Assembly (NCBI GenBank): GCA_947454705.1
Contig: CANGKZ010000004.1
Span: forward strand, 1 to 64,000
Length of the DNA: 64,000 nt
Direction: 5' to 3'
From: Verrucomicrobiota bacterium
Lineage (GTDB): Bacteria; Verrucomicrobiota; Verrucomicrobiia; Limisphaerales; UBA9464
The translations under genes and the position numbers were made by a program. This document shows, in pieces, positions 18,657 through 55,607 of this stretch; position 1 is the stretch's first letter, and each line of letters starts with the position of its first letter. The notes under the pieces were generated by a model. That model saw only the letters and a program-made list of their open reading frames with translations. It searched no databases and was not told where the DNA came from.

Positions 18657-18958
18657 CTGCGGGATGGGATTTCACCTGCGGTTTTTAGACAAACACTGCG
18701 GGGATGCATCCGGGCGGCGACGGGGAACGTTAGCCCGATGCGGAGACGGGAATAGGCGGGCACCGGGGATTTCCTGTGGTGGGATCCCTCACTCCGGGCT
18801 GGCACTTGCGTCCACGCAAGGATAAGACTGGCTGGTCTCCTGCTGAATTCCCGGATTTTAATCCTCGGGCGTTGGGCTGTGGAGTCGAAGGAAGTCGGTC
18901 GCGGTGTTGGATTCCAATCCTCCCTACCCAGCTCAGACCTGTGCCCGCGGAAAATCGC
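18657..18958. other. Upstream region of the giant surface-protein gene
   Basis: This roughly 300-bp stretch has no independent gene; the plus frame is open from 18776 with a GTG, but shows no signal sequence or homology before 18959. It contains an operator-like palindrome, CTTGCGT-CC-ACGCAAG, at 18805-18820, about 140 bp ahead of the start codon. It could be a regulator site, with no further support. Confidence 0.4.
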
Positions 18959-21900
18959 ATGTATATGAAGGACTCGTCCCGATTCGTTTCCCTTGTTGCC
19001 TCCGCATGCCTGGCCTTGGCCGCCGCGTTTTCGGTTCAAACCTCCTTCGGCGAAGCAGTGAACGGAGTGAGTGCGCGTCGGGTCGACCGGTTTCAATCCC
19101 GTTTGGGCCTCAACCACAAATGGGTGGAGCGACTGATCCAGAGGACGAACGCGATGGGCCGGTTGGAAACCCGGACCAATGCCTACTGGCACTATCAACC
19201 TGGACTTCATTTTCAGGACGCCTCGGGAGCACTGAGGAAATCCGAGGCCACGTGGAGGCGGGTCGACGAAGCGTTTGTGGCGGATTCGATGCAGCACCAG
19301 GTTCGGCTGGCGCCAAGCCTGTCGGGCGATGGTACCACGCAGGTTCGACTGCCCGGGGGGCGGAGCCTGGCGAGTCAAGTGGTCGAGATCCGCTACCGGG
19401 ATCTGGCGTCGGGACGGAGTGCCACACTGGGTCGGGTGAAAAAGAGCCAGGGTCGCATTCTTGAGGCAACCCAGGTGGTGTATCCCGATGCGTTCGATTC
19501 CCTGGCGGCCGACATTCGGTACACGGTGTCCACCCTGGGGATTGAGCAGGACATCATTCTTCGCGAAGCCCCGCCGTTGCCGGAATCGATCGGGTTGAAT
19601 CCGGAGACCACACGGATCGAAGTCCTGACCCGGTTTTCGGACGCAGAATTCGCCACGGTGGAGGCGGCGCGGGTGGATCAAAAATGGAACCCTGCGGGAA
19701 CGCCGGCGGAGATCCGACCGGTCGAGCGGGAGGATGTGGTGATCCGGTTTGGCTCGATGCAGATCGGCCGGGGAAGGGCGTTTGCCCTTGGCGCGGAGTC
19801 CGGGGAATCGCTTCCGGTGGGCAAGCGCTGGATCGTGGAGGACGGGAAGCGCTGTCTGGTGGAGGCGATCGAGTACCGCTCCGCCCGGCCGCAATTGGCG
19901 AAGCTTCCACGCAACGGACGCGCGGTGGCGAGCGCTTCGCCCGGCGAATTGGAATTATCCCCCGGATTCGCCTCGGCGGAATTGCAGCGGGATTTTCAAC
20001 GACCCGGACTGGTGCTGGACTATCTCCAAACCCTCACGCCGCAACCGATACGGGATTTCGTGTTCCAAGGGGACATGACGTATTACATCGATGGCGAACT
20101 ATTCCTCGAGGGCACCACCACGCTCGAGGGCGGGGCGGTGATCAAGTATCCTCCCTTCGCGGGATCCGTTTGGATTCTTGGCCGGCTCGACTGCATGACG
20201 TCGAGCCACCGCCCGGCGATTCTTACCGGCCGGGACGACGACTCGGTGGGGCATCGCATTGATTCCTCCACCGGATTTCTCGCGGGAACCTACGGGAACC
20301 GAGGGCTCGCCTGGTGGTACAGTCCTGATCCGATCGATCTACATGACGTTCGGTTTGTTCACCTGGGGCGCGGATTGGAGATCAACAGCGCCACGGAGAA
20401 TCGGCTTCACAGCCTGCAGATGGTCTCTCGGGTCGATTACTCGAATCCGGCTGATCCAGTGATCTCCAACCGCGGCGAAGGAATTCTGGTCACGGGTGGA
20501 ACCAATCATATTTACAACGTTCTCTTTGCCTATTTGAACCGGGCAATCGTGGGAGCGGCCCCGAATCAGGTGTCGGATGTGAACACGGTGACGCCCGAAA
20601 TGGGGGTGATGGATGTTGCCTATGTCACCGCTGCGGGGTGCTGGTCCTTTTGCAATCCGGCGGTCTCCCTCTATTTGAACGGGGATGAACCCCTGGAGGC
20701 CCCGAAACGCTTCTACCGTTCGTTCTCCAGTCTGCGGATTCGGAATTCAATCATCGGCCGCACCGTTGCTTCGGCGGATCCGAGGTTGGGCGGGCTGGAC
20801 GTATATGCCGATGCCGGTGGAGCAACGATCCCGACCGATCAGCGTCAGACGCAGCTGGATTCGAAGGGAAATTTCTGGCCCGCGGAGATTCTTGAGTTTC
20901 TCGCACCGAGTCTGGCGGGCAGCTATTACCTCAAGCCCCAGGGATCCCCGGTGTATCAGGCATTGTCCGCGGCGCAGGTGCTGGCGGGGGAGACACCGGA
21001 ACTTTCGACCCGGGATTTCACCACCCTTCGTCCGGTGGATCTGCAACCCGAGTACGTAGACGACGTCGTCCTTGGGGATCGGGCGGAAGTCGCTGCGGAT
21101 ACCTGGAGGAGTCCGGGGTACCATTATCCAAGGATTGATTACCTCTCCATTGCCTCGCGTTTCAACAAGAGCGTGACGCTGACCAACGGGGTGTGTCTGG
21201 GCTGGGCCTATGTCTCGGCGGTGGATCTCGGGGCAACCGGGGCTTCCCTGATCAGTGTCGGAACTCCGGAGGCGATGAACCGGATTCTCAATGTCGCCCA
21301 GGTTCAGGAAGGCACGCCGCCGAGTGGCGGTCTCGGGGTGGTGACCGCGTTGAGCGCGTTTCGGGAGGTGAACGGGAGTCCGGTTCAACGAATCAGCTCC
21401 CTGGGTCAGGTGCGCCTCCGCTTCACCGAAGTGAACACCACCGCGGGGGAATTCTTCCTGCTCAACTTGATCGCCGCGTACGGCAACAACGCGGCGTTGC
21501 CGATTCAATCCATCCACATTTCCGACAGTCAGTTTCACGGGGCGCACCTGAATTACTCGCCGATGAACACGGTTCCCGTGTCCGTGGTGCTGAAGAACAA
21601 TCTCTTCAATCGCGGGCTGGTGTGGTTTGGGGTTTCCGGTTGGGGAGGTGCCTACGTGGGAGGGACTCCGGCTCCGCTGGATTTGGAGATCTCTAACAAC
21701 CTGTTCCGACATCTCCACTACCCGCCGAATCCCGAAGTCGGCTGGTTCATCCTGGCCCGCGAAGCACAACCGGCGAAGGCGTGGACGGTGATCGACAACG
21801 TGTTCGATTCAACCGGTGCCCAAATCTGGGGGCCGTTTGCGGGGACCTTTAGCAACAACGGGTTCTCCCCCAATGTGCCGGCGATCGGTGGATTGCCGGT

Positions 21901-24900
21901 GGTGGCAACACCGCAGTACGCGGTGGCGACGGGAGGGCTCGGCGGATGGTATCAGGCGTTGAATCCGCTCTCCGGAACTTCGCCTTTCTCCAACCGGGGA
22001 AGCCGCAGCGCCGCCGCGGCCGGACTCGCCCGGCACACCGCCCGCGCGGACCAGGTGCGGGTGGTGAACGATCCGGTGGACCTGGGCTTTCATTACGTGG
22101 CGTCGCAATCGATGGGAGGAGCGGTCCGGCCTCTGGATTCCGACGGCGACCAGATCCCGGATTATGTGGAGGATGCGAATGAAAACGGGGTGGTGGATTC
22201 CGCCGAGAGCGATCCGCAGAACGCGGTTTCCCCGCCGCGTCGAATGGGCCTCTGGCAGTTCAGCACCCCGGCGTTCGCCTCGGAGGAGGGAGTGCTTCCG
22301 CGTCCAGGGAGCAGTCTTGGGGCGCGACTGGTGGAGTCGTTCGACGGCAATGCCGCCGCGTTCGATGGAGCTTCCCAGCCCCTGGTTTACAATCTTGCCG
22401 AAGCGGATGGACGCCGGAACATCGACTTCCGCTCGGGTTCCATCCGGTTCACCTACGTGCCGGACTGGATGACCACCCCCTCCCGCCGGCCGTCCCGGAC
22501 CCTCGGATTGTTCCAGTGCGGACGGTGGAAGATGATTGTCACCAACGGAGTCTCCTCGCCGGAGATTCATTTGTTTACAACAATAAACGATGGATTGATC
22601 CCCACGCTGATTCTTCCGGTGGATGTTCCCACCTCGTCGGATCTGCCGGCGGGTGAACGCTGGGGATACGAGGTTCAGATCAACTACAACTCGCAGCGCG
22701 TGTGGGCCTCGATCACCAAGGCGATGGACTTGAACGCGAAGTTTCAGCGCGCCTCCGCCTCGGGCATCGTGTCGGATGTGACCGACGATGAGCGCGCCTC
22801 GGGGCTGTGGATCGGAGGGGCTTCCCCGGGCGGTGGTGGTGCAGTTCTGGATGCCGATGGGTTCATCGATCAGTTTGAGACCTTCAACGTGCCGACGGAG
22901 CGGATCATCGTTGGTTTGCCGCCCACGCCGGAGTTCCAGTTCTCGTCCGACTTTGGCGAGCTCTGGAACCGGCTGAGCATGAAGCGGAATTCGATTCGTG
23001 CGACCGACACCGGCGCCGGGCTTCGGCTCGAATGGCTCGCGGCGTGGGAAGGGGATTGGAAGGGAACGAGCCTGACCAACAGTTATCGGATATTCCGCCG
23101 CGACGTGGGAAACCACTACACGCTCTGGGATGGCCCCGAGGTGGAGGTGGTGGGAGTGGATGTGAGGACGAATCGGTGGACCGACACGACGGCGGTTCCG
23201 GGCCGTTTGTATGAGTATCGAATTGGGCGTCTGCAGACCAGTCCGCGCGAGGCCCGCGGCGAAGAGATCTACGAGTACTCGCCCTATGAGCATCCAACTC
23301 TGGTGGCCGGACGGATCGGGGACCCCTTGCTCAATCGCGGTACGGTGTTTCTCGTGATCGAGGAAAGCCTCCTTGATCCCGCCAGCGAGGCCAACACGTC
23401 GTTCCGACCCAACCTCAGGGCGAGCCTGATCGTGTACCGGAATGATCTGTGGCGGGACGGGTGGAAGGTCATCGAGATTCCGGCGAAGCGGATGAATGAC
23501 CTGGATTGGTACCTGCCTTCGGGACGGCAGGCCTGGCACGACAACATGCTGTCGATCAAACAACAGATCCATTCTGTCTGGTCGGCCAATCCTTCCGGGA
23601 ACTATCAGATTGTCCTGCTGGGACGCGTGCCGATTCCCTATTCCGGATATGTGCCCCTGGACGGTCATGGGTATGGCCAGCCTCCGGATCATTCCGGGGC
23701 TTGGCCCGCGGATGTGTTCTACGGGGACATGTCCCATATGGAGTGGCGCGACGCGACCAATCCGATCTTCCCTCCCGGAGCTCCCGGTCAGACACCGAAT
23801 TCCTGCCCGGGTGATTGCGAGGATGCGCATCCGCTGGGCGGGGACGGCTATGGAATCCAGCTGAACTCCGCGGGGGATTTCAAATACGACAACCAGCTGC
23901 TTCCTTCCGACGCCGAGGGCGGCCCTGGTGGACAGTTGGAGATTCCGGTCGGGCGCATCGATTTTGCGGCACTCGAGTATTACGCGAATCCGACCACGCT
24001 CCTTGCCTCGCCCCATTCGACGCCGCGGCTGGCCGAGTATCAGTTGCTGCGCCGGTACCTGGCCAAGGTCCACAACTATAAACTCGGGCTGAGGACCTAT
24101 CCGCAGGGGATTCGTGTGTATGAAGAGGACGGAAACTTTTTCGAGATGGGCTCAACGATTGGCAACATTCTCGACCGGGCCGGCTACGGGCGCGAATCGC
24201 TCAACGTCTTCAAGCAGGACCTCTTTGCCCAAAGCTCGGATATCCTGTGGGGAGTCCACGGTGGTTTTAGCAGCCGGTCCACAATTCAGGGAAGCCGCCC
24301 TGCAAATTACGCCAGCGAGGAACTGGCGACCGGAGCGATCTCGCCGCGATGCGGATTCCTGTTCCTTCGCGGTTCCCATTTTGTGGATTGGAACCTGCTC
24401 GATTCCTTCGGACTCCATTGCCTCGCGCTGTCGAACGACGTGCTTTCGGTTTCCTGGATTGGAGATGCCTACAGCGGCATTTTCTGTGGCCCCTATCAGG
24501 TGGACCCGGTGGCTGCAGGAATGCACCTCGGTGCGATGCAGACGGCCACCTACAACCGGATCAATCTCCAGCAGGTCACCGGCAACTACCTGCTCGGAGA
24601 CCCAACGCTTCGGATGAAGTACATCGCCCCGCCATCCACGGCGACCGCGGTCAAGGTGTGTGGTGTGGCGGCGGGTGCAGGCACTCCCGGGGCGGAGACC
24701 TTCGCGATCGACCTATCGTGGACGGCGTCGTCCGACGTGGTGGACGGATACGCAATCTACCGCAATGAAGCGAACGCCGGCGCGCTGGGGAGCCAGACGG
24801 AATATCGCAAAGCCTCGAACTGGGTTCTCAAGGGCACGGTCTCCGCGGATCAATTGAGCTTCCGCGATGTTTCCGGTGGATTGAGCAGCTATGGCGCGGT

Positions 24901-25012
24901 CGACTACATGGTCCGGGCTGTGGTTCGCGTCCGTACGGGATCAGGCGGCTACTCTTGCCCCTCTTTGGGGAGCGTCGCCACATGCAATCTCACCGCCACC
25001 GTCTGCCCGTAA
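18959..25012 (+). CDS. Giant exported protein: beta-helix, Ca-type repeat, LamG-like and C25-peptidase-like region
   Basis: A 2017-residue protein starting MYMKDSSRFVSLVASACLAL (signal peptide). Order of parts: an N-terminal region of about 350 residues; a parallel beta-helix region with repeated strand turns (FLEGTTTLEGGAVIKYPPF, VSVVLKNNLFNRGLVWFGVS, LEISNNLFRHLHY); a calcium-type segment DSDGDQIPDYVEDANENG; and a concanavalin-like region around FDGNAAAFDGASQPL. From about residue 1460 to 1885 the sequence resembles gingipain-type (C25) cysteine peptidases: GNYQIVLLGRVPIPYSG, DVFYGDM, a WGVHGG histidine, a cysteine in SPRCGFLFLRGSHF and the ending NYLLGDPTLRMKY. An FnIII-like tail ends VCP. 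There is no type IX sorting domain. Likely cell-surface or secreted; substrate unknown. ATG at 18965 is an alternative start. Confidence 0.78.
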   Translation: MYMKDSSRFVSLVASACLALAAAFSVQTSFGEAVNGVSARRVDRFQSRLGLNHKWVERLIQRTNAMGRLETRTNAYWHYQPGLHFQDASGALRKSEATWRRVDEAFVADSMQHQVRLAPSLSGDGTTQVRLPGGRSLASQVVEIRYRDLASGRSATLGRVKKSQGRILEATQVVYPDAFDSLAADIRYTVSTLGIEQDIILREAPPLPESIGLNPETTRIEVLTRFSDAEFATVEAARVDQKWNPAGTPAEIRPVEREDVVIRFGSMQIGRGRAFALGAESGESLPVGKRWIVEDGKRCLVEAIEYRSARPQLAKLPRNGRAVASASPGELELSPGFASAELQRDFQRPGLVLDYLQTLTPQPIRDFVFQGDMTYYIDGELFLEGTTTLEGGAVIKYPPFAGSVWILGRLDCMTSSHRPAILTGRDDDSVGHRIDSSTGFLAGTYGNRGLAWWYSPDPIDLHDVRFVHLGRGLEINSATENRLHSLQMVSRVDYSNPADPVISNRGEGILVTGGTNHIYNVLFAYLNRAIVGAAPNQVSDVNTVTPEMGVMDVAYVTAAGCWSFCNPAVSLYLNGDEPLEAPKRFYRSFSSLRIRNSIIGRTVASADPRLGGLDVYADAGGATIPTDQRQTQLDSKGNFWPAEILEFLAPSLAGSYYLKPQGSPVYQALSAAQVLAGETPELSTRDFTTLRPVDLQPEYVDDVVLGDRAEVAADTWRSPGYHYPRIDYLSIASRFNKSVTLTNGVCLGWAYVSAVDLGATGASLISVGTPEAMNRILNVAQVQEGTPPSGGLGVVTALSAFREVNGSPVQRISSLGQVRLRFTEVNTTAGEFFLLNLIAAYGNNAALPIQSIHISDSQFHGAHLNYSPMNTVPVSVVLKNNLFNRGLVWFGVSGWGGAYVGGTPAPLDLEISNNLFRHLHYPPNPEVGWFILAREAQPAKAWTVIDNVFDSTGAQIWGPFAGTFSNNGFSPNVPAIGGLPVVATPQYAVATGGLGGWYQALNPLSGTSPFSNRGSRSAAAAGLARHTARADQVRVVNDPVDLGFHYVASQSMGGAVRPLDSDGDQIPDYVEDANENGVVDSAESDPQNAVSPPRRMGLWQFSTPAFASEEGVLPRPGSSLGARLVESFDGNAAAFDGASQPLVYNLAEADGRRNIDFRSGSIRFTYVPDWMTTPSRRPSRTLGLFQCGRWKMIVTNGVSSPEIHLFTTINDGLIPTLILPVDVPTSSDLPAGERWGYEVQINYNSQRVWASITKAMDLNAKFQRASASGIVSDVTDDERASGLWIGGASPGGGGAVLDADGFIDQFETFNVPTERIIVGLPPTPEFQFSSDFGELWNRLSMKRNSIRATDTGAGLRLEWLAAWEGDWKGTSLTNSYRIFRRDVGNHYTLWDGPEVEVVGVDVRTNRWTDTTAVPGRLYEYRIGRLQTSPREARGEEIYEYSPYEHPTLVAGRIGDPLLNRGTVFLVIEESLLDPASEANTSFRPNLRASLIVYRNDLWRDGWKVIEIPAKRMNDLDWYLPSGRQAWHDNMLSIKQQIHSVWSANPSGNYQIVLLGRVPIPYSGYVPLDGHGYGQPPDHSGAWPADVFYGDMSHMEWRDATNPIFPPGAPGQTPNSCPGDCEDAHPLGGDGYGIQLNSAGDFKYDNQLLPSDAEGGPGGQLEIPVGRIDFAALEYYANPTTLLASPHSTPRLAEYQLLRRYLAKVHNYKLGLRTYPQGIRVYEEDGNFFEMGSTIGNILDRAGYGRESLNVFKQDLFAQSSDILWGVHGGFSSRSTIQGSRPANYASEELATGAISPRCGFLFLRGSHFVDWNLLDSFGLHCLALSNDVLSVSWIGDAYSGIFCGPYQVDPVAAGMHLGAMQTATYNRINLQQVTGNYLLGDPTLRMKYIAPPSTATAVKVCGVAAGAGTPGAETFAIDLSWTASSDVVDGYAIYRNEANAGALGSQTEYRKASNWVLKGTVSADQLSFRDVSGGLSSYGAVDYMVRAVVRVRTGSGGYSCPSLGSVATCNLTATVCP

Positions 25013-27331: not shown

Positions 27332-27411
27332 TTTCCGTGCTTCTCCAAATGCGGACTTAACTGACGGGACGTGAACTGGTGCCAGAACGTCAGCCCTTAA
27401 ACGCCTGTCTT

Positions 27412-29172
27412 ATGAATTCCAAACTGCCTCTGCTCTTCGCCGCCTGCCTCGGCGGACTTTCGGCCCTTTCGGTCAGCGCCGGGGATCCCATCGTCGATCA
27501 ATGGTACACCCAGCAATCGGGGCTCTACGCCCGGATTTATGTGAACGCCGCGGCCAAGGCCGCCGGCACCCAGGTCACCACCTGGAGCAACGGCTCGCAG
27601 ACCCAATCCCAGCCCGCCTACTCGGGCATCCAGGAAATCTACTCCTCGGCCTCCTGGGTGTATCTGCGCACCACCGGTCTCGGCGTGCATGTGATGGGGC
27701 CGTGGTCCGCGGGATTCCCGAACCTTCCGTCGAATCAGAAGGTGCTGTACCGCATCCCTCGCACGACTTCGATTCCGTCGACGCCCTCGCTGACCGGGCT
27801 TGGATCCATCGGCTATTTCGTCGATGGCGTCGCCATGTTTGATTCGCGCGATGCCTTCTACTGGAACGGCACCAGCGAAGGCCAGGGCAGCGGCAATTGG
27901 AATCGCGAGGCCTACGTGAACGAGGGCGCCACCTTCGATCCCGCCTACGCGCATCAGCAACAGCAGGGCACCTACCACTACCACGCCAATCCGATCGCGC
28001 TGCGCTACCTGCTCGGGGATCACGTGGATTACAACGCCACCACCGGCACCTACTCGGAATCCACCACCGCGGTCACCCGTCATTCGCCGATTCTTGGATG
28101 GGTGTCCGACGGCTTCCCGATCTACGGCCCCTACGGCTATGCCAACGCGACGAATCCCGCGAGCGGACTCCGCCGGATGATTTCGGGGTACCAACTTCGG
28201 AACAGTCAGAAGGGCACCGACAACCTGACCACCGCCGGCCGCTCCTCGATTCCCGCCTGGGCCAAGCGTCTTTACGGAACCACCGGAGTTCAGACCGGGC
28301 CGGCCGTCTCCACCACGTATCCGCTAGGGCGCTACATGGAGGACAACGCCTACCTCGGGGATCTCGGATTCAAGCAGGGGGTGGATTTCGATCTGGATGA
28401 ATCCAATGGCCGCTTTTGCGTGACCCCGGATTTCCCCAACGGGACCTATGCCTACTTCGTGTCCATCGCGGCGGATGGCACTCCGGTGTATCCGTACAAC
28501 ATCGGACGCGCCTTCCACGGCTCGCCGACCGGCGGATCGGTGACGACCCTGTCTGAAACGGTCACCACAAACTTCGTTGGCGGAGCAAGCCGTCCCATTG
28601 TGTTCGATGCGCCTGCGAATCGGTCCGGTCAGGTGACCCTCACGTGGTCTGCCGTGGAGGGCGGGAGCTATCAGTTGGAGACCTCCACCAATCTCGCCAC
28701 GTGGAACAATGCGGCTGGAGCGGTGGCAGCGACCGGGAATCGCGGTTCCGTGACGCTCGATGCGACCCCCGCGGGAGTCGATCGACGATTCTATCGGGTG
28801 GGTTCGGTCACGGTCGCCAGCTATGACCCGGCGACCGGCACCGCGAACACCGGTGGTGGAACCGGCGGCGGCGGCACGCAGGGACCTCCGCTCGCCTCCA
28901 TCACCCCCACCAGTGGCACTCGTGGAACCAGCGTCACCATCACCATGACCCTTGGAACCAATCCTCCTCCGACTGCGGTCAATCCGAAGGCCGCTGCGTT
29001 GGGAACCATTTCTGGTACTGACGTTCGACGCTCTGGAAATACGGTCTCGGCCACGTTTGCGATTCCGGCAACGGCCACTCCGGGCACGGTCACGGTCAGC
29101 GTGACCTTCCCGGGGCCTCCGGGATCTGACGATGTCACCTTCGCGCTTCAGAACGGATTCACCATTCGCTGA
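27412..29172 (+). CDS. Secreted YHYH-domain protein
   Basis: A 586-residue exported protein; signal peptide MNSKLPLLFAACLGGLSALS, cleaved near VSAGD. Residues 130-370 contain the YHYH domain with its namesake motif in GTYHYHANPIALRYLLGDHV, plus GWVSDGFPIYGPYGY and PDFPNGTYAYFVSI, all typical of the family. It is followed by a beta-sandwich with VEGGSYQLETSTNLATW, then a TGGGTGGGG linker and an IPT/TIG-like domain (LASITPTSGTRGTSVTITM). The YHYH function is unknown; such proteins are found beside CotH and two-component genes. The ATG is preferred over a GTG 33 bp earlier. It diverges from the CpxR-like gene. Confidence 0.85.
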   Translation: MNSKLPLLFAACLGGLSALSVSAGDPIVDQWYTQQSGLYARIYVNAAAKAAGTQVTTWSNGSQTQSQPAYSGIQEIYSSASWVYLRTTGLGVHVMGPWSAGFPNLPSNQKVLYRIPRTTSIPSTPSLTGLGSIGYFVDGVAMFDSRDAFYWNGTSEGQGSGNWNREAYVNEGATFDPAYAHQQQQGTYHYHANPIALRYLLGDHVDYNATTGTYSESTTAVTRHSPILGWVSDGFPIYGPYGYANATNPASGLRRMISGYQLRNSQKGTDNLTTAGRSSIPAWAKRLYGTTGVQTGPAVSTTYPLGRYMEDNAYLGDLGFKQGVDFDLDESNGRFCVTPDFPNGTYAYFVSIAADGTPVYPYNIGRAFHGSPTGGSVTTLSETVTTNFVGGASRPIVFDAPANRSGQVTLTWSAVEGGSYQLETSTNLATWNNAAGAVAATGNRGSVTLDATPAGVDRRFYRVGSVTVASYDPATGTANTGGGTGGGGTQGPPLASITPTSGTRGTSVTITMTLGTNPPPTAVNPKAAALGTISGTDVRRSGNTVSATFAIPATATPGTVTVSVTFPGPPGSDDVTFALQNGFTIR

Positions 29173-29791: not shown

Positions 29792-30325
29792 ATGCTGAAG
29801 CCCACTGTTCCTTCTCCCTCCATTCACCTGACCCATTGCGGCCGGGTGGGTGTCGCCCAGGTCCTCAACGAGTTCTCCGTGCTCGCAGCGGTGCCCATCC
29901 GCCCGGGAGAGTTGGTGTTCCGAATCGAGGGCGTACAGGTCCCGGTGGCCTCGCGCTTTTCGGTTCAGGTGGATGACCAGTGGCACGTGGACCTTTCCAA
30001 GGACGCCACCGAGAAGGACATCATCCTTTACCACCCCTGGCGTTTCATGAATCACAGCTGCGATCCCAGCGTGCGGGTGATCGGACGCGAGGTGCGTGCG
30101 CTGCGTGCCATCCTGCCCGGGGACGAGATCACCTTCGACTACGACACCACCGAGTTTGACATGGCCGAACCCTTCGACTGCCGATGCGGTGCCGCAGCCT
30201 GCCGCGGATGGATCGGTGGATTCGCTCATCTTGATCCCGCGCATCACGAAGTGTTGCGTGAGATGCTCGCGCCTCATCTCTTAACACGGGTTGAGCAGAT
30301 GGACGGGGCAAGTACGAAGGCATGA
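29792..30325 (+). CDS. SET-domain protein methyltransferase
   Basis: A 177-residue SET-domain protein. The catalytic pseudoknot motifs are clear: FMNHSCDPSV (about residues 84-93) and GDEITFDYDTTE, followed by a cysteine-rich post-SET-like tail CRCGAAACRGWIGG that would bind zinc. Such enzymes transfer methyl groups from SAM to lysine side chains. Bacterial SET proteins are uncommon outside a few phyla and their substrates are mostly unknown. Its stop codon overlaps the start of the large NRPS-like gene by 4 bp (ATGA), so the two products are coupled. That context suggests the methyl acceptor could be the NRPS product, its carrier domain or an amino-acid precursor (inference). Confidence 0.88.
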   Translation: MLKPTVPSPSIHLTHCGRVGVAQVLNEFSVLAAVPIRPGELVFRIEGVQVPVASRFSVQVDDQWHVDLSKDATEKDIILYHPWRFMNHSCDPSVRVIGREVRALRAILPGDEITFDYDTTEFDMAEPFDCRCGAAACRGWIGGFAHLDPAHHEVLREMLAPHLLTRVEQMDGASTKA

Positions 30326-33300
30326 ATCCGCAGGCGGAAGGTCAAGCCGTCGGACCTGGATCTGATTCCGCCACCGGATTGCCGCCGCTTCCGACGACAC
30401 TCCTTCATGAAGTGTTTCGCCGGTCGGCCCGGCGATGGCCCGATGCCGTTGCATTCGAAGCGCCGCCGGGGCCTGGGCGATCCCATCGCAGCATCCTCAC
30501 TTACGCCGAGCTCGATCGACTCTCCGACCGCCTGGCCGCGTGGCTTCGGCCGTTCGTGCAGCCGGACTCCGTGGTCGCGCTGCTTCTCCCACGAACCGAG
30601 ATTGAGTTCGCCGTCGCCCAGCTCGCCGTGCTCAAAGCCGGGGCGGCCTATGCGTGCCTGGATGCTGCGTTCCCGGACCGGCAAGTGGTTGAAATTCTTT
30701 CGGACTCGGAATCCCGCATCCTGCTGACCGATGCAACCGGCGTCGCCCGCTCGGCCTGGAGCGGTGTTCGAGCGCTCGATTGTCGGCGGCTTCTGGAGGA
30801 AGCGACTGCCGATCTGACGGAGACGCCCAACGTTCAGCCTTCGCATCTCGCCTACCTCATCTACACCTCGGGTACCACCGGGCGTCCGAAGGGCGTGATG
30901 ATCGAACACGCGTCGATTGTGAATCTCGTCGAGTCCGATCGAGACGAATTCCATCTCGGCCCCGGCGACCGCGTGGCCCAGGGATCTTCGGCCGCGTACG
31001 ATTCATCGGTCGAGGAACTCTGGCTCGCATGGGGCAGCGGTGCGACTGCAGTGGTGATGGACGATGAGGCCGCCCGGCTCGGACCCGATCTCATTCCGTG
31101 GCTCCAGCAGGAGCGCATCACCGTGCTGTGTCCTCCGCCGACGCTTCTGCGCACCACCGGGTGCGACCGGCCTGATCTCGCGCTTCCAGATCTCCGCCTG
31201 CTGTACGTCGGCGGCGAGGCGCTGCCCTCGGATGTTGCGGAGCGTTGGGGACGCGGCCGACTTCTCGTCAATGGATACGGGCCCACCGAGTGCACCGTCA
31301 CCTCGGTCCGGGGCCGTATCGAAATCGGTGCACCCATCACCATTGGCCGCCCGGTGCGTGGGTTCACGGCCTGGATTGTGGATGAATCCCTCCAGCCGGT
31401 GGCCGAAGGGGCGGAAGGCGAGTTGTGCCTCGGCGGAGTGGGATTGGCGCGCGGGTACCGGAATCTTCCCGAAGTCACGGCGGAGAAATTCCCGATTCAT
31501 CCGCAGTTTGGACGCATCTATCGCACCGGCGACCTGGTGTCGCGCGGACCCAATGGCGTGATGACCTGCCACGGCCGCGTCGATGCCCAGGTGAAGATCC
31601 GCGGATATCGGATCGAACTGGAAGCCGTGGAGTCGCGACTGTCGGAATGCCCCGGGGTGCGCTCCGCCGCCTGCGCGGTACGGGGCGACTCCTCCCGTCA
31701 GATGCTGGTGGGCTACATCGTGGCCGATGATCCGGCATCGCCCCCGGAAGCGTCCGCATTGAAGGACGAGCTTTCGCGGGTGTTGCCGGCGTACATGGTG
31801 CCGTCGGCGTTCGTGTTTCTTGCCGATCTGCCGCGAACCGTCGGAGGCAAGATCCAGCGTCGGGCCCTGCCGGAACCGCTGGTGAACCCCGTTGCCGAGT
31901 CGGCAGCGGATTCTTCGAACGAGGGCGATGTTTCCACGTTGAGCGAAGTGGAGCGGATTCTCCTCAAGGCCTGTGCTCAGGCGTTGAACCGCCCCGAACT
32001 TGGCGCCGCGGCGGTGCACGCGGATTTCTTCAATCAACTCAACGGCGATTCGCTGACGGCCGCGCTCTGGGTGTCGAGATTGCGCGAACACGCCGGGACC
32101 GCGGCGTTGACGGTGCGTGATGTGTACGAGCACCGGACCCCGGCCCGCCTCGCCGTGCGGGCCGCCGAAGTGCGGAGGGAGTCGGGCGGCGATGCTCCGG
32201 CTTCTTCGGCGGGAACTTCCGCAGACCCCATCGGTGCCGGCGGACGCTTCATCGCCACCTGCCTTCAACTCGCGTCGATTGCCTGGTCCACGGTGGTGTT
32301 TTCCCTTTTGTTGTACTGGGGCGTGTTCCATGCGCTTCCCTGGTTGGCAATCCGCGTGGGGCCGGTGCCGATCATTCTGGGCTTTCCCGGAATCGTGTTT
32401 GCCGTGGTGGCGATTTACACGCCGGTGTCGATCGCCATCGCAGTGCTTCTCAAACGACTCCTGATTGGTCGCTATCAACCGGGACGCGAACCGGTGTGGG
32501 GATCCTTCTATCTCAAACACTGGGCCGTTCAGAACGCGGTTCGACGCATCCCTTGGAATTTCCTCGAAGGCACCGAGTTCCTGAACATGACGCTTCGGGC
32601 GCTGGGCGCGCGGGTCGGGCGCCGGGTTCACATTCACCGCGGCGTGGATGTGTTCCGCGGTGCGTGGGATTTGTTGGAGATCGGCGACGACGTCACGCTG
32701 TCGCAGGAGGCTTCATTGCGTTTGGTGGAACTCGAGGATCGCCAGCTGGTCATCGGTCCGGTGGTGATTGAATCCGGCGCCACGCTGGAAGTGCGGGCAG
32801 GTGTGGGATGCCACACGCGCGTGGGAGCGGGCGCGTCGCTCACCGCACTGTCTTCACTGCCCCGCGGTGGAAGCATCCCCGCGGGCGAGCGTTGGGATGG
32901 CATCCCGGCACGCTGCATCGGAACCACGCCCAAGCCGGATCTCGATCCCGCAGCGCCGCAGCCGCTGTCCCCGGTGGCGTATTCGTTGTTGCTGATCCTC
33001 GCGCGTCTCGCGCTGGGCTGGATCCTCGCGCTGCCGCTCGAGTTCATCGCGCTGTTGATCGCCCGCTGGACCGGGACCGATGTCGAGCAGGCCCTCGATT
33101 GGCTGGAGTCGCCCACCGTTTCGGCCACTGGAGTTTTGACGGCGTGCATTGCCATGTTTGCCCCCGTCCCGCTCGCACTGCTGCTGGAGGCTGCGTTGTG
33201 CCGGGCGCTGGGGCGTATCAATCCGGGTACAATCCCCCGGTCGAGTGCGGCATTTCTCCGGGTGTGGATGAAGACCGGCATGGTGCAGTCGGCCGGGAAC

Positions 33301-34377
33301 TGGCTGTACGGAACGCTCCTCTGGCCCTTCTGGCTGCGACTCGCGGGGGCGAAGATCGGAAAGGACTGCGAGATCAGCACCATCATCGACGTGGTTCCCG
33401 AGATGCTGGAGATCGGCAACGGGAGTTTTCTTGCCGATGGAATTTATCTGGCCGGCCCGCGGATTCATCAGGGTTGCGTGACGCTCGCGCCGATCCGGAT
33501 TTCCGAACGGACCTTTCTCGGAAACGGCGTGGTGATTCCCGCCGGCGAGAAGCTGCCGCCGGATTTGCTGCTCGGGGTGCTTACGGTGGCCGATGCGCGA
33601 TTCTGTCGACAGGGCTCGGCGTGGTTTGGTCACCCGGCGTTTGAACTGCCCCGACGCGAGGTGCTAGAGGTGGATGCCCAGCTCACCCATCAACCGTCAG
33701 TGCTGCGTCGCGCAAATCGATGGTTCTGGGAGGGACTGCGGTTTCTCGTGCCGTTTGTTCCCGCCGCTGTGGTGCCGCTGTGGTGCAGCCTGCTGCAGCA
33801 ATTTGGAGGCGATCAGCCCACGACTGCGTTTTTCTGGTTGGGAGTTCCTGCTGCCACGGCCATCGCGGGACTCACGCCTTGTTTGGTGGTGATCGCGCTG
33901 AAGTGGCTCGTGCTCGGCCGGGTGAAGCCCGGTGTTCATCCGCTGTGGTCGTGTTGGGCGAGTCGATGGGACTTCGTGTGCCTCGCGTGGAGCCTTCTCG
34001 CGCGCGACGTAATCGGCACGCTCGATGGCACCCTGGTGCAGGCCTGGTTCCTCCGCCTGCTCGGGGTTTCGGTGGGCCGCGGTGTCGTGTTGGGACCGGG
34101 CTTTGCGCAGGACATCCCGGATCCCGACATGTTGCATCTCGGCGATTGCGCGACCGTGGATGGACTGTTCCAGGCCCACACCTTTGAGGATCGCGTGCTC
34201 AAGATTGATCGCGTGTCGATCGGGGCCGGTGCCACCATCGGCATCAACGCCGTGCTCCTCTACGGATCGGAGATCGGCGACGGCGCGCGGGTGGAGCCCC
34301 ACTCGGTGGTGATGAAGCGCGAGCGCCTACTGCCGGGCCACGTGTACCTCGGATGCCCCACGCGTCGGGTGCGGTAA
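30322..34377 (+). CDS. Pls/PosA-type membrane NRPS (epsilon-poly-lysine-synthetase-like)
   Basis: A 1351-residue protein with the layout of membrane poly-amino-acid synthetases. Residues 20-535 are an adenylation domain (core LIYTSGTTGRPKGVMIEH, NGYGPTE, YRTGDL, final lysine in GGKIQRRALP). Residues 545-610 are a carrier domain with phosphopantetheine serine S577 in LNGDSLTAAL. From about 640 on come three pairs of membrane helices (643-710, 883-960, 1139-1200) alternating with three hexapeptide beta-helix-like soluble domains (for example MLEIGNGSFLADGIYL, VSIGAGATIGINAVLLYGSEIG). There is no condensation or thioesterase domain. Hand alignment to GrsA gives specificity residues near D-S-E-C-Y-G-G-V-T-K; D235 with E239 is compatible with a basic amino acid. 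The upstream SET gene overlaps by 4 bp. Confidence 0.88.
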   Translation: MNPQAEGQAVGPGSDSATGLPPLPTTLLHEVFRRSARRWPDAVAFEAPPGPGRSHRSILTYAELDRLSDRLAAWLRPFVQPDSVVALLLPRTEIEFAVAQLAVLKAGAAYACLDAAFPDRQVVEILSDSESRILLTDATGVARSAWSGVRALDCRRLLEEATADLTETPNVQPSHLAYLIYTSGTTGRPKGVMIEHASIVNLVESDRDEFHLGPGDRVAQGSSAAYDSSVEELWLAWGSGATAVVMDDEAARLGPDLIPWLQQERITVLCPPPTLLRTTGCDRPDLALPDLRLLYVGGEALPSDVAERWGRGRLLVNGYGPTECTVTSVRGRIEIGAPITIGRPVRGFTAWIVDESLQPVAEGAEGELCLGGVGLARGYRNLPEVTAEKFPIHPQFGRIYRTGDLVSRGPNGVMTCHGRVDAQVKIRGYRIELEAVESRLSECPGVRSAACAVRGDSSRQMLVGYIVADDPASPPEASALKDELSRVLPAYMVPSAFVFLADLPRTVGGKIQRRALPEPLVNPVAESAADSSNEGDVSTLSEVERILLKACAQALNRPELGAAAVHADFFNQLNGDSLTAALWVSRLREHAGTAALTVRDVYEHRTPARLAVRAAEVRRESGGDAPASSAGTSADPIGAGGRFIATCLQLASIAWSTVVFSLLLYWGVFHALPWLAIRVGPVPIILGFPGIVFAVVAIYTPVSIAIAVLLKRLLIGRYQPGREPVWGSFYLKHWAVQNAVRRIPWNFLEGTEFLNMTLRALGARVGRRVHIHRGVDVFRGAWDLLEIGDDVTLSQEASLRLVELEDRQLVIGPVVIESGATLEVRAGVGCHTRVGAGASLTALSSLPRGGSIPAGERWDGIPARCIGTTPKPDLDPAAPQPLSPVAYSLLLILARLALGWILALPLEFIALLIARWTGTDVEQALDWLESPTVSATGVLTACIAMFAPVPLALLLEAALCRALGRINPGTIPRSSAAFLRVWMKTGMVQSAGNWLYGTLLWPFWLRLAGAKIGKDCEISTIIDVVPEMLEIGNGSFLADGIYLAGPRIHQGCVTLAPIRISERTFLGNGVVIPAGEKLPPDLLLGVLTVADARFCRQGSAWFGHPAFELPRREVLEVDAQLTHQPSVLRRANRWFWEGLRFLVPFVPAAVVPLWCSLLQQFGGDQPTTAFFWLGVPAATAIAGLTPCLVVIALKWLVLGRVKPGVHPLWSCWASRWDFVCLAWSLLARDVIGTLDGTLVQAWFLRLLGVSVGRGVVLGPGFAQDIPDPDMLHLGDCATVDGLFQAHTFEDRVLKIDRVSIGAGATIGINAVLLYGSEIGDGARVEPHSVVMKRERLLPGHVYLGCPTRRVR

Positions 34378-50425: not shown

Positions 50426-50561
50426 GCGGGGATCGTGAATTGACCCGCCGATGATGTCATCTGTCCAAGAAGCGGGATTGGCAGGTTTTGGCGGCGGCCG
50501 GTTGGCCCGAATTCTGTGGGCATCCGGGTGGGGAATCGCGAAGAATGCGCGGTCGTCATCC

Positions 50562-53500
50562 ATGGTGTGCGGAAGTCAACGGAACGCGGCCTGGTTCGCG
50601 GTGTGTCGCGTTGTTCTCCTGCTCGGAATGTTCCTTGGCGCGGGCCGGGGGATGGGAGTGGCAGCGGAGAATCATGCCCTGTCATTGGGAGGGCAGGGGG
50701 ACTATTTGCGCTTTCCAGCGGAGGTGCTGTTTTCGCAGGACGAATTCACCCTCGAATGCCGCGTCAATTGCCGGGACGCCGGCCGCTACTCGCAGGTCTT
50801 CGGCGTGGGCGTGGCCCGCAGCATGATCGGCCTCAACACGGGCGATGTCCCGGCACGGTTCCGTCTCTTCGTTTACGCACCGGGGGAGCCCGATGCCGCG
50901 CTGGTGATTCCCACCCAGCACCCCATTCAGTTGGATCGTTGGTACCACCTCGCCGCCACCGTCGGGCGATCCGAGGTGCGGTTGTACGTCAACGGCGTGC
51001 TGGAGGGCACAGCTCCGTTTGCGGGCGGACCCAAACGGTTTCTCCAGTCGGGACAGGGGCTCATCGGTCGCTCGCAGTGGACCGCCAATCCGGATTTCAA
51101 CGGGCTCGTGGATGACTTCCGCATCTGGCGTCGCGCGCTGACCTCCGCCGAGGTGCAGCAGTTGTCGAAGGGAATTCCCGGAGTTCCGTCCGCGGGATTG
51201 ATCGGGGAGTTGAACTTCGAGAACGGATCGATGGATGGAACTGCGGGGCTGCGATCTTCCGTCGCTCGTGTGGGCAATGCCGCCATTGTGTCCTCCGACA
51301 GCTCGGTGTTCGAAGGAACTGCGGTTTCGGGCGAGGTGATGAATCCCGCCGGGGTGACGGTGCCCGGAAGAGTCCGGGTGATCCGTAACGGGCGCGTGTT
51401 GCTGATCTCCACGGCGGAAACCTCAGGACGGTTTTCCTTCAATCTGCATGCGCAGCCCGGGGATCGATTGGATTTTGGGGCTTCCTTCGGACCGACGGCG
51501 CAATGGATTTCGGGAGTCACGAGGTCGTCGCTTACTGGTTCGAATCTGGTGTTGCGATTGAAACCGGAGGCGGTGCTGGGTGGACGTTTGACCGGATTTG
51601 ACAGCAGTCCGCACGCGAATGTGGCGGTGGATTTGATCCGGATTCGCGAGGTCGAGGCCGGTCGATGGGAGGAGGACGAGGTGGTGGATACCACGGTGTC
51701 GGACGCCAGTGGTGCCTACCGGTTTCGGAACCCGATTCCCGGCAGGTATTGGGTTCGTTGCCATTTGGCGGAGGGCTACGCGTATTATCGCGAGACCCCG
51801 GGGGCGAGCGCCCGCGAGTCCGCCATGGCCAGTCCTTTGACCTGCGATGGCGCGGGTTCCCACGATCGGGTGGACTTCCGCTTCGCCCCGTTTCGCAAGG
51901 GACGATGGCGCACCTGGACCACGCTGGACGGACTGGCGGACAACCGGGTCCAGGCGTTGTGTCAGGATCGGGATGGCTTCGTGTGGATCGGCACCGCGGG
52001 GGGATTGTCCCGCTTTGATGGCAAACGGTTCGATTCCTTTGGCGAGCGGGACGGACTCCCCGCACGGTCGGTCACCGCGTTGATGTTGGATGGCGCCGGC
52101 CGGCTTTGTGTTGGCACTCCGCGGGGGCTGGCGATTTGGAACGGCGCCGCATTCCAACTCGCGAAGTTGAACGGCGCAGTGGCCACGAACTCGATCACCT
52201 GCTTCGCCGACGCAGGGCAGGGCAGGTTACTCGTCGGAACCCAACGCGGGCTGAAACAGTGGAACGGAACGGCGCTCGAGGAGTTGCCCGGGTATGAGGC
52301 GATCGAGTCCACAGTGATTCGGTGCGTGCGGGTCTCGGGAGTGGAGACCTGGGTTGGGGTTGCAACGGAGGACGGGACGTTGATGGGGCTTTGGCATCGG
52401 GAGGCTGGACTCTTGAAGCAATTCGGAGTGGCCGATGGTCTCTACAACCTCAATGTTTTCGGTTTCGCCGAAACTGCGGATCGAAGTGTGTGGATTGGAA
52501 GCGGGTTGGGACTCTCGATCTGGAGGAAGGGAAGGCTGGTGGCTCCGATGGATTTTGGAGCGGATCCGACCTTCTCCGCACAAAGCGTGGCGCTTGCGGT
52601 GGATTCGCGGGACCGGCTGTGGATTTCACGGCTGGGAAGCGGACTGATCCGATGGGAGCAGGGACGGAGCGTGCGTTATGGCGTCACCGAGGGGCTTCCG
52701 GATTCAGTCGTGTTGACGCTGTTTCCGGATGCCGATGGCAGCTTGTGGGTGGGCATGGAAAGCGGCGGAGTGGCCCGGTACGAAGAGGCGGGGTTCGATG
52801 TGTATTCCAGCCGCGATGGAATGCCGTCGGAGCCGGTGAGCGTGTTGTCGGTGTCGGGGAAGGGCGAGGTGATTGCCGGTGCCCAAAACGGAGGCCTGGC
52901 GCGGATTGATCACAATCAGGTTCGCGTGTTCACCGCCGAGGATGGCCTGGCGGATCATCATGTTCGCAGCCTGCATCGGGACGCTTCGGGCGTTCTCTGG
53001 CTGGGCAGCGATCAGGGCCTCCAACCGTATGCTAATGGACGCTTCGGACGGTTCGAAGCGACGGGCAGTCCAGTGCGGCAAATCAGTCCGGGCGCGGACG
53101 GGGAGTTGCTCCTCGTGCTGGAAACTCAGGGCCTCTACGCGCGGACGCCCAGGGGATTGGTTCAGCGGGTGGAAAACCGGGTGGGCGGAATAATGGCGTA
53201 TCTCGCCGATGAAGCCGGAACCACCTGGATGGTGGCCCATGGAGAAGGGATGTTCCGCGTGGATCGGAACGGCCTCGGTCCCAAGTTTGGAGACCTGGAG
53301 CTTTCCCGAAGCATGATCACCTCGGTGACCCGCGCTCCCGGCGGCGGGCTGCTGCTCGGGACCCGGTTGGGATTGTACCGATTTCGATCGGAACGCTTCG
53401 AGGGATACAAGGTGCCCGGCGTGTCCGAGACCCAGGGAATCCTGTCCCTCGCGTCGGATGCCCGCGGCCGGGTCTGGATCGGTACCGGAAATGGTGCGGT

Positions 53501-55607
53501 GCTTTTCGACGGGAATGCCGCCTCGATTCTGGATGTCTCCGACGGAATCGGCGGCCGTCATGTCCACTCAATCCAGCCGTCCACCAATGGCGTGGTTTGG
53601 TTCGGAACCGAGGCCGGCGTCACGCGTTATGAGGCGAGCCGCTCGCATCCGCGGATTCGCGTGACCGCGGTTCGTGGGGATCGTCTGGTTGCCGATCCGG
53701 CACCCTCCATTCCGCAGAGGGTCACCCTGGGAGGCGAGGTTACCGTCCAATTCAGCGCGCTCGATTTCAAAACCCAGCCAAGTCGGAGGCAGTATCGTCA
53801 TCGGGTCCGCCCGTTCGGTTCTGCTTCCGATGCGATCGGCTTTGAGGCGGCTTCGGTTGCCACGAGCTGGTCGTGGACCCCTTCGGAAGCGGGGAGTTAC
53901 GTCTTCGAGGTTCAGGCCATCGATCGCGACCTCAACATGTCCCCGACGGCCTCGGTGGAACTGGTGGTCGTCGCACCCTGGCACGCGCTCCCCTGGGTGC
54001 GCGGGCTCGGCGTGGCCGGGTTGGGCGGATTGAGCCTCTCGTTTGCCGTGCTCTTGATCCGGGTCCGCGCGGGCCGCCTGGAATCCAGACGACTGCGCGA
54101 ACAGTTGGCGGAGGAGGATCGGCGCTCCCGCCGCTCGCTCGAGGAAAAGAACCGCGAACTGTCCGAAGCCAAGCTCCAGGCGGATTCGGCGAATCGGGCG
54201 AAGAGCCTGTTCCTCGCCAACATGAGCCACGAGATCCGAACGCCGATGAACGTGATTCTCGGCTACGCGCAGATTCTCAACCGTTCCGCCGCACTACCGC
54301 CGGAATTCAAGAGCGCCGTGGGGGCGATTGAATCCAGCGGATCGCATCTGGTTTCCTTGATCAACGAGGTCCTGGATTTGTCGCGCATCGAGGCAGGGCG
54401 CTCCGAGCTGGTGCCCGAGGATGTGGATCTGATCGGATTCCTGGCCGAGCTCGACACCATCTTCCGTCATCTCTGTCGCGAGAAGGGATTGAAGTGGACG
54501 CTGTCCCCTCCGGAGGTTCCCGCGCTCTGGGTGCGGGCCGATGGCACCAAGCTGCGGCAGATCCTCGTGAACCTGGTGGGCAACGCGGTGAAGTTCACTC
54601 CGGAGGGGGAAGTGCGATTGACCGTGCGCTGGGATCGGGATGCGAACGATCCGGACGCCTCCGTCCGGACTCCGGCGCGAATCACGTTTGAGGTGCGCGA
54701 CACCGGACCGGGCATTCGTGCAGAGGACCGTGCCATCATCTTTGAGGCCTTCCAGCAGGGCGAAGGCGGGCGCCGCGTGGGTGGGACCGGTCTGGGGCTC
54801 GCGTTGTCACGCCGGTTCGTTCAGATGATGGGTGGAGAGCTTCTGGTGGAATCGAGTCCCGGAAACGGGGCGTCGTTTTTCTTCACCGTTTCCCTGGAAC
54901 GCGCGGCGGCGGTTCAAGCGCCACGGATGGATGGAGTGGATCGCGTCGCTCGGCTGCGGCCCGGGACCGAGTTGAAGGTGTTGATCGTGGACGATGTGGC
55001 GGCGAACCGCGATCTGCTGCAGCTGCTCCTTCAGGGCATGGGTGCAGAAGTGCGTCTGGCCTCCGATGGCGCATCGGCCCTCGCCCTCGTGGCGGAATTT
55101 GTTCCCGACCTGGTGTTCCTCGATCTGCGACTCCCGGGGATGGATGGTTATGAGCTTCGCCGGCGGCTGGCCTCGGGGGCCCGCGTTCCGAAGACCGTGG
55201 CCGTGTCCGCGTCGGTGCTGGCGACGGACGAACCGGCCTTTGTCCAGTCGGGTTTCGATGCCTTCCTCCCAAAACCCTTCGCGCTCTCCCAGCTGTGGGA
55301 ATGTTTGATTCGGGTATTGCCTCAGCACGTGGTTCCGATGAACGCCGTTCCCTCGCCGCAGGCATCGGAACTGGAATCGGATGATCCGATCCCGAATGTT
55401 GAAGTTCCAGCGGATCTGGCATCCCGGTTGCTGACAGCCGTCCGACTGCAGCGCGTGACCGAGTTGCGGCGCGGGCTGCGTGAGCTTTCCGAGCTCGGTC
55501 CCGGGGCGCGGGAGCTGGCGCAGCGAATTGAGCCGCATCTGAACCGTTACGACATGACCCGCGTGGCCGAGCTTTTGGCCGGGCTGAGGTCCAAAGACTC
55601 CGTGTGA
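50562..55607 (+). CDS. Hybrid histidine kinase with LamG and beta-propeller sensor
   Basis: A 1681-residue hybrid kinase starting MVCGSQRNAAWFAVCRVVLL (signal peptide/anchor). Order: a LamG/concanavalin domain (about 40-200, HALSLGGQGDYLRFPAEVLF...); a CNA-B/carboxypeptidase-regulatory-type domain (about 250-430); two-component propeller repeats (from about 440 on, e.g. DGFVWIGTAGGLSRFDGKRF); a Y_Y_Y domain; and a membrane helix (GLGGLSLSFAVLLIRV). Inside the cell are a coiled coil, HisKA with H1223 (NMSHEIRTPMN), HATPase (DTGPGIRAEDR, GTGLGLALSRR), a receiver with D1521 (FLDLRLPGMDG) and a C-terminal extension of about 90 residues. This recalls the hybrid systems of Bacteroides that sense oligosaccharides, but LamG is unusual there. 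ATG at 50451 would add 37 residues. Confidence 0.88.
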   Translation: MVCGSQRNAAWFAVCRVVLLLGMFLGAGRGMGVAAENHALSLGGQGDYLRFPAEVLFSQDEFTLECRVNCRDAGRYSQVFGVGVARSMIGLNTGDVPARFRLFVYAPGEPDAALVIPTQHPIQLDRWYHLAATVGRSEVRLYVNGVLEGTAPFAGGPKRFLQSGQGLIGRSQWTANPDFNGLVDDFRIWRRALTSAEVQQLSKGIPGVPSAGLIGELNFENGSMDGTAGLRSSVARVGNAAIVSSDSSVFEGTAVSGEVMNPAGVTVPGRVRVIRNGRVLLISTAETSGRFSFNLHAQPGDRLDFGASFGPTAQWISGVTRSSLTGSNLVLRLKPEAVLGGRLTGFDSSPHANVAVDLIRIREVEAGRWEEDEVVDTTVSDASGAYRFRNPIPGRYWVRCHLAEGYAYYRETPGASARESAMASPLTCDGAGSHDRVDFRFAPFRKGRWRTWTTLDGLADNRVQALCQDRDGFVWIGTAGGLSRFDGKRFDSFGERDGLPARSVTALMLDGAGRLCVGTPRGLAIWNGAAFQLAKLNGAVATNSITCFADAGQGRLLVGTQRGLKQWNGTALEELPGYEAIESTVIRCVRVSGVETWVGVATEDGTLMGLWHREAGLLKQFGVADGLYNLNVFGFAETADRSVWIGSGLGLSIWRKGRLVAPMDFGADPTFSAQSVALAVDSRDRLWISRLGSGLIRWEQGRSVRYGVTEGLPDSVVLTLFPDADGSLWVGMESGGVARYEEAGFDVYSSRDGMPSEPVSVLSVSGKGEVIAGAQNGGLARIDHNQVRVFTAEDGLADHHVRSLHRDASGVLWLGSDQGLQPYANGRFGRFEATGSPVRQISPGADGELLLVLETQGLYARTPRGLVQRVENRVGGIMAYLADEAGTTWMVAHGEGMFRVDRNGLGPKFGDLELSRSMITSVTRAPGGGLLLGTRLGLYRFRSERFEGYKVPGVSETQGILSLASDARGRVWIGTGNGAVLFDGNAASILDVSDGIGGRHVHSIQPSTNGVVWFGTEAGVTRYEASRSHPRIRVTAVRGDRLVADPAPSIPQRVTLGGEVTVQFSALDFKTQPSRRQYRHRVRPFGSASDAIGFEAASVATSWSWTPSEAGSYVFEVQAIDRDLNMSPTASVELVVVAPWHALPWVRGLGVAGLGGLSLSFAVLLIRVRAGRLESRRLREQLAEEDRRSRRSLEEKNRELSEAKLQADSANRAKSLFLANMSHEIRTPMNVILGYAQILNRSAALPPEFKSAVGAIESSGSHLVSLINEVLDLSRIEAGRSELVPEDVDLIGFLAELDTIFRHLCREKGLKWTLSPPEVPALWVRADGTKLRQILVNLVGNAVKFTPEGEVRLTVRWDRDANDPDASVRTPARITFEVRDTGPGIRAEDRAIIFEAFQQGEGGRRVGGTGLGLALSRRFVQMMGGELLVESSPGNGASFFFTVSLERAAAVQAPRMDGVDRVARLRPGTELKVLIVDDVAANRDLLQLLLQGMGAEVRLASDGASALALVAEFVPDLVFLDLRLPGMDGYELRRRLASGARVPKTVAVSASVLATDEPAFVQSGFDAFLPKPFALSQLWECLIRVLPQHVVPMNAVPSPQASELESDDPIPNVEVPADLASRLLTAVRLQRVTELRRGLRELSELGPGARELAQRIEPHLNRYDMTRVAELLAGLRSKDSV

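Follow-up and report, generated by a model that had tools for sequence, protein, structure and literature searches.

What does a SET-domain methyltransferase do when its gene runs directly into that of a poly-lysine-type synthetase? The two genes lie in a window of 64,000 nucleotides from a Verrucomicrobiota bacterium, the whole stretch of DNA analysed here, and a direct reading of the sequence bore out the coordinates and the 4-bp overlap that the initial annotation had given them (Table 1).

Table 1. Features of the SET-synthetase locus, in window coordinates
Feature	Position	Strand	Evidence or remark
SET-domain methyltransferase gene, 177 aa (P0001), BurB-side small SET protein	29792..30325	+	Pfam SET, AF2 model, PDB fold match
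NHSC motif, SET domain residues 87-90	30050..30061	+	Translation; H88 and C90 invariant in 45 relatives
ATGA overlap (SET stop and synthetase start)	30322..30325	+	Read from sequence; 17 of the 30 linked relatives also overlap by exactly 4 bases
Pls/PosA-type single-module synthetase, 1351 aa (P0002)	30322..34377	+	TIGR02353, AMP-binding, PP-binding
Adenylation domain	30415..31851	+	Pocket D227 S228 E231 C270 Y295 G297 G318 V326 T327 K510 = DSECYGGVTK
Carrier (thiolation) domain with LNGDSL	31960..32154	+	PF00550; motif at residue 573
Hexapeptide-type beta-helix segment 1, membrane tail	32608..32928	+	AF2 model
Hexapeptide-type beta-helix segment 2, membrane tail	33346..33588	+	AF2 model
Hexapeptide-type beta-helix segment 3, membrane tail	34066..34362	+	AF2 model; sole segment detected by Pfam (PF00132)

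Elsewhere in the window, positions 18776-25012 (+) hold a 2078-aa open frame with no Pfam match, which is a candidate gene only, and at 50451-57244 the gene of a hybrid sensor kinase (Reg_prop propeller, laminin-G-like domain) overlaps that of a sigma-54 response regulator by 4 bases.

The partnership between the SET protein and the synthetase is real, well conserved and undescribed in the open-access literature searched. SET orthologs (E below 1e-39) were found in 9 of the 58 genomes searched, the window's own included, and were separated by a gap from the generic SET proteins, which begin at E above 1e-13; in all nine genomes the synthetase, either full-length or cut by the contig end, is located directly downstream of the SET gene. 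A scan of named genomes yielded 46 members of the SET clade, several verrucomicrobial loci among them coming from genomes already counted in the nine, and a synthetase follows immediately downstream in 30. The initial annotation had made its proposal depend on conservation of the pairing in relatives, and these 30 of 46 loci, from at least five phyla, show the pairing to be conserved. The linked pairs span Verrucomicrobiota, two Planctomycetota, an Armatimonadota (Chthonomonas) bin, a gammaproteobacterial bin and many Actinomycetota (Streptomyces nanshensis, Kutzneria, Lentzea, Amycolatopsis, Kibdelosporangium, Actinocrispum, Planosporangium and Pseudonocardia); in one of them (L073) the synthetase is split into two ORFs. 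The distances among the SET proteins correlate with those among the synthetases (r = 0.80, 29 pairs, none of 5000 permutations as high), a correlation that is owed in part to common ancestry among the hosts. In both the SET and the synthetase trees, however, the pair from the gammaproteobacterial bin falls with a verrucomicrobial one, which suggests transfer as a unit. Pls-type synthetases were found in 74 of 200 genomes from the order to which Kutzneria belongs, and the SET clade occurs only in Kutzneria itself.

Outside close relatives the flanking genes differ between families, with YHYH and CotH genes in the window's genus only, and regulators, acyltransferase-like proteins, a pseudouridine synthase and others elsewhere. 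Since the flanks are unshared beyond close relatives, the conserved unit is two genes; a larger cluster was considered and rejected, as the differing flanks hold no third conserved gene. In the window the YHYH protein is encoded at 27379-29172, upstream of the pair, and on a Deinococcus plasmid a YHYH gene lies about 2.7 kb from a SET gene.

The genes also tend to occur together when they are not adjacent. A whole-genome search found a low-scoring TIGR02353 synthetase elsewhere in the genome for 7 of the 16 unlinked SETs; they include Streptomyces melanogenes, where both genes are on one contig about 14 kb apart. Besides these, there is a Streptomyces plasmid on which they are about 10 kb apart. 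Six of the seven synthetases have the pocket code of the window enzyme, as does the plasmid one, and the remaining one (L116) is too short to be read. The same search detected no low-scoring synthetase in the other nine SET-bearing genomes, most of which are draft bins; in one of these (L083) the contig ends shortly past the SET gene, and a Mycobacterium (L089) has only a canonical enzyme with a lysine code. The neighbours of unlinked SETs include a GDSL lipase and an asparagine synthase (Gemmatimonadota-type), RecG (Holophagaceae) and LPMO and SulP (Streptomyces), and no functional theme common to them was found. The reverse situation is found in G247, a 98% complete genome that has the synthetase without this SET clade and, elsewhere, a generic SET (E 7e-11); at its synthetase locus (L110:2718-8154) an aminotransferase gene lies upstream and genes for a DEAD-box helicase and argG lie downstream on the other strand. 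Chance neighbourhood was rejected on the nine of nine orthologs, the 30 linked loci, the unlinked co-occurrence and the correlation of distances. A search of open-access papers for a SET protein with a poly-lysine synthetase, or for trimethyllysine with an NRPS, found nothing, in agreement with the initial statement that no SET-Pls pathway was known.

Pfam matched the AMP-binding, AMP-binding_C and PP-binding families in the synthetase and detected no condensation or thioesterase family. This agrees with the initial description, and so does the Pls/PosA-type layout, a single A-T module that continues into a membrane tail of three soluble domains in tandem. The claim of three hexapeptide domains, of which Pfam recognizes only the third, stands because the AlphaFold2 model of the tail (residues 630-1351; pLDDT 86.1, pTM 0.88) shows three units, each consisting of long helices, as a helix pair, and then a hexapeptide-type beta-helix. 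Foldseek matched this tail to maltose, galactoside and serine acetyltransferases and proteins like them, always single hexapeptide proteins, and no solved structure covers the membrane tail among the sequence hits listed. With the TIGR02353 'Pls/PosA' model the synthetase scored 422.1 bits, or 424.6 in the genome search, against an NCBIfam cut-off of 423.1, and its homologues from the SET clade mostly score lower (343-407 bits when full length). Judged from sequence, the window synthetase is a distinct clade within the known Pls/PosA kind, with an isopeptide homopolymer as its putative product. The SET-clade-specific invariant residues of the tail were also inspected for a possible ammonium cage; 6 of 11 are tryptophan, but little weight is given to this, tryptophan being generally conserved and a small control clade giving 5 of 42.

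The substrate of the synthetase was approached through its adenylation pocket. Ten specificity positions were mapped through conserved adenylation motifs, and the mapping recovered the published PosA string DMEHNGTVSK in a canonical enzyme (L113) and DAESIGTV(V/I)K in the Lys-type enzymes. Every SET-linked synthetase with a fully readable pocket has the code DSECYGGVTK; in L060 the first three positions are truncated and the remainder agrees. The code is absent from 13 canonical synthetases of the same or related genomes, which have DAESIGTV(V/I)K, DMEHNGTVSK, DFE types and others, and in the synthetase tree a fully supported branch of length 1.56 separates the enzymes with the SET code from the 13 canonical ones. 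Kutzneria viridogrisea (G699) by itself encodes six Pls/PosA-type synthetases with several different pocket codes. The initial annotation had taken D235 and E239 to fit a basic amino acid. The acidic pair survives as the equivalent D227 and E231, at pocket positions 1 and 3 and present in all fully read relatives, and agrees with a basic pocket; the code as a whole is neither of the lysine nor of the ornithine type and falls outside the known diamino-acid types (Lys, Orn, Dab/Dap, beta-Lys). A diamino-acid code is typical of the characterised Pls/PosA members, although it is not a strict criterion of the family. In PosA the Asp and Glu hold the alpha-amine and the side-chain cation, and T304 is one of two hydroxyl residues contacting the side-chain amine; in the window pocket T304 is replaced by G318 and the chain-length residue by Ser. 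With Asp and Glu kept, Ser at the chain-length position and Gly for T304, the pocket would suit a longer cation that forms fewer hydrogen bonds.

An adenylation domain with the identical ten-residue code, that of Bdellovibrionales OFZ39577.1 (compared with the window by code alone, as printed), activates L-arginine and none of Dap, Dab, Orn and Lys (PMC10522769). Provided that equal codes mean equal specificity, plain lysine is an unlikely substrate of the window synthetase, and a plain epsilon-poly-lysine methylated afterwards would be disfavoured because the pocket has neither a lysine nor an ornithine code and the same code activated arginine and no diamino acid. Taken at face value, this preference among the substrates tested would make arginine, or a larger amino acid resembling it, the monomer, with the SET enzyme methylating either the monomer or the finished chain of an arginine-type polycation. 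The argG gene of G247, two genes downstream of its synthetase and on the other strand, would suit such a monomer, but argG has a housekeeping function and its position may be accidental. A guanidine is moreover a poor nucleophile for isopeptide formation, and we know of no SET enzyme that methylates arginine. The arginine activity was itself only modest, and its authors suspected a larger analogue (PMC10522769); we regard an arginine-type polymer as rather unlikely.

The second line of evidence comes from the SET protein, in which Pfam matched a single family (PF00856, E = 3.7e-10) and the NCBIfam search matched no model. Its NHSC motif and post-SET cysteines, the latter as CxCx4C at residues 130-137, are intact as first read. 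In an alignment of 45 relatives the clade retains the catalytic Tyr117, the HxC of NHSC and the zinc cysteines, together with a nearly invariant loop, TTExxMAEPF, and an invariant Phe115 at the Phe/Tyr-switch position, where Phe is usual for multi-methylating lysine enzymes (PMC3585878). The motif-II tyrosine that lines the lysine channel (the position of DIM-5 Y178 and Set1 Y967) is replaced by Ile45. Generic bacterial SETs from related genomes almost all have this tyrosine where the motif could be aligned, and BurB lacks it too; in yeast Set1 its Ala mutant is inactive (PMC3585878), and Suv4-20 is an example of a non-canonical lysine pocket (PMC3874154).

BurB, which converts free methionine into S-methylmethionine for an NRPS/PKS pathway (PMC12542666, PMC7496086), is the best solved match to the window protein by profile (E 1.9e-14 vs 1.4e-10 for the next), by Foldseek and by VIA-align (Z 13.5 vs 11.2 for ASH1L), the AlphaFold2 model having been built with the 45 relatives (pLDDT 94.1). 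In the SET tree BurB is on the side of the window clade, and most generic SET protein-lysine methyltransferases fall opposite; as long branches separate BurB from the window clade, no sisterhood is claimed. By these resemblances the SET partner is of the BurB rather than of the histone kind. Hence the premise of the initial annotation that SET enzymes methylate lysine side chains should not be assumed here, because BurB is the nearest relative and the motif-II tyrosine is missing.

The kinship with BurB raises the question of whether the window enzyme simply makes S-methylmethionine, the synthetase then activating this sulfonium amino acid. The shared loss of the motif-II tyrosine, BurB being the nearest solved structure, and the SulP sulfate transporter gene that follows the SET gene in Streptomyces are in line with it. 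The active-site residues differ, however: where the window clade keeps the Asn of NHSC, BurB has Leu, and its switch residue is Met instead of Phe; no burI/D/E-type gene is adjacent to the pair, long branches divide BurB from the window clade, and S-methylmethionine is short whereas the pocket code suits a long cation such as arginine, so that we see at most a slight chance for a sulfonium monomer. Most characterised SET enzymes modify proteins, and with Tyr117, NHSC and the post-SET cysteines intact the window enzyme might have as its target a lysine in the synthetase or in some other protein, its role in the pathway being merely regulatory. We hold this role to be decidedly unlikely, given the missing motif-II tyrosine, the presence of some more distant SET relatives in amino-acid or natural-product operons, and the altered substrate pocket that accompanies the SET protein, which would be unexpected for a mere regulator.

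Some members and distant relatives of this SET group occur in other settings. The Gemmatimonadota-type SETs (L086, L088, L094, L095) have Asp for the Asn of NHSC, as in WRYMDHAC, and three of them (L086, L088 and L095) have genes of a related asparagine-synthase family downstream, on the opposite strand. On a 21-kb conjugative plasmid of Tabrizicola piscis (L134:1124-6128) a distant SET heads an operon-like row continued by genes for a GHMP kinase, a PLP-dependent enzyme, a DMT transporter and an alanine racemase, and is another candidate for small-molecule amino-acid chemistry. On an Eleftheria terrae plasmid a distant SET lies beside aminotransferase and aldehyde dehydrogenase genes, which are flanked by PKS/NRPS genes. 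On plasmid p7 of Rhizobium bangladeshense (L138:5868-7780) asparagine-synthase-like, SET-like and S-adenosylmethionine decarboxylase genes adjoin one another; the plasmid also carries genes for ribonucleotide reductase and ParB-domain proteins.

Taking together the conserved pair, the divergent pocket and the likeness to BurB, we propose a pathway of two genes: the SET enzyme would methylate a free amino acid, which the synthetase would then activate and polymerise to a cationic homopolymer. We give this proposal nearly even chances. In the model, the SET enzyme, as a small-molecule methyltransferase of the BurB kind, would draw the methyl group from S-adenosylmethionine. The synthetase, translated together with it from one mRNA, would activate the methylated product through an adenylation pocket whose specificity is for cationic side chains exceeding lysine in size. 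The activated monomer would be loaded on the carrier domain and joined repeatedly, by means of the membrane tail, into a cationic homopolymer at the membrane. The pairing, its conservation, the unique invariant pocket and the BurB-like fold are results of the computation; methylation before activation, the identity of the monomer, its polymerisation and the linkage are what we infer. The leading guess for the monomer is an N6-methylated (di- or tri-methyl) lysine, which would fit the pocket changes and connect both genes. Trimethyl-lysine is without the side-chain amine for the isopeptide bond typical of the Pls/PosA family; a trimethylated side chain would then imply linkage via the alpha-amines, and with a monomethylated one an isopeptide bond would still be possible. 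Further points weigh against this proposal: with Ile45 in place of the motif-II tyrosine, lysine may not be the substrate of the SET enzyme; G247 has a DSECYGGVTK synthetase without the SET clade; and nine SET-bearing genomes, most of them draft bins, show no such synthetase. More tentative is the fuller version, a horizontally spread two-gene pathway with the SET enzyme as precursor supply and a polycation whose repeat is the SET-methylated amino acid, for example poly(N6,N6,N6-trimethyl-lysine), which we consider possible but less than probable.

Translational coupling and strict co-occurrence would suit any step of one pathway, and the SET enzyme might act after activation, as a tailoring enzyme whose substrate is the amino acid on the carrier or the completed polymer. 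If plain lysine came first, though, a pocket like DAESIGTV(V/I)K would be predicted, whereas the pocket differs and the domain with the matching code was inactive on lysine; BurB, the nearest relative, works on a free amino acid. Action after activation is thus unlikely in our estimate, and methylation of the free amino acid is the preferred order.

In sum, the pair points to an undescribed natural polymer whose building block is a cationic amino acid enlarged by methylation or in some other way. Poly-lysine-type polymers serve as food preservatives and delivery agents, and to our knowledge all known ones are built from plain diamino acids. If the proposal is correct, the SET-synthetase cassette, found in five phyla and on chromosomes and plasmids, would add to this family a new class of monomer, perhaps permanently charged, and would extend the BurB precedent, with SET enzymes supplying amino acids to assembly lines instead of acting as histone writers. 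It would also offer a candidate answer to the Bdellovibrionales result, in which an adenylation domain of matching code took arginine but left the usual diamino acids unused. The proposed pathway can be tested now in carriers that grow in culture (Lentzea aerocolonigenes, Kutzneria, Amycolatopsis, Kibdelosporangium and Streptomyces).

Compared with known systems, the window SET protein shares with ASH1L, SETD2, MLL1 and the generic SET lysine methyltransferases the SET fold, the NHSC motif, the catalytic Tyr and the post-SET zinc cysteines, but these enzymes keep the EYxGE tyrosine and do not have the TTExxMAEPF loop. BurB of Burkholderia thailandensis (malleicyprol pathway; PDB 9l4t, 9l4v) is likewise a small stand-alone SET protein of an NRPS-type pathway and has the same Y-x-x-T-E ahead of the post-SET cysteines; the two are about 28% identical and differ at BurB Leu92 and Met122, which correspond to Asn87 and Phe115 of the window. 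BurB feeds a DMSP pathway along with decarboxylase, aminotransferase and dehydrogenase genes, whereas in the window annotation and the neighbourhood families no such genes are linked to the pair. The synthetase has in common with Pls of Streptomyces albulus (epsilon-poly-L-lysine) and PosA of Acinetobacter baumannii (delta-poly-L-ornithine) the adenylation domain with Asp and Glu at pocket positions 1 and 3, the carrier domain, the tail with three tandem soluble segments and the lack of condensation and thioesterase domains. It differs from them in its separate long-branch clade, its TIGR02353 score at or below the cut-off, its DSECYGGVTK code and, while PosA is reported as a single-gene operon, in its conserved SET partner.
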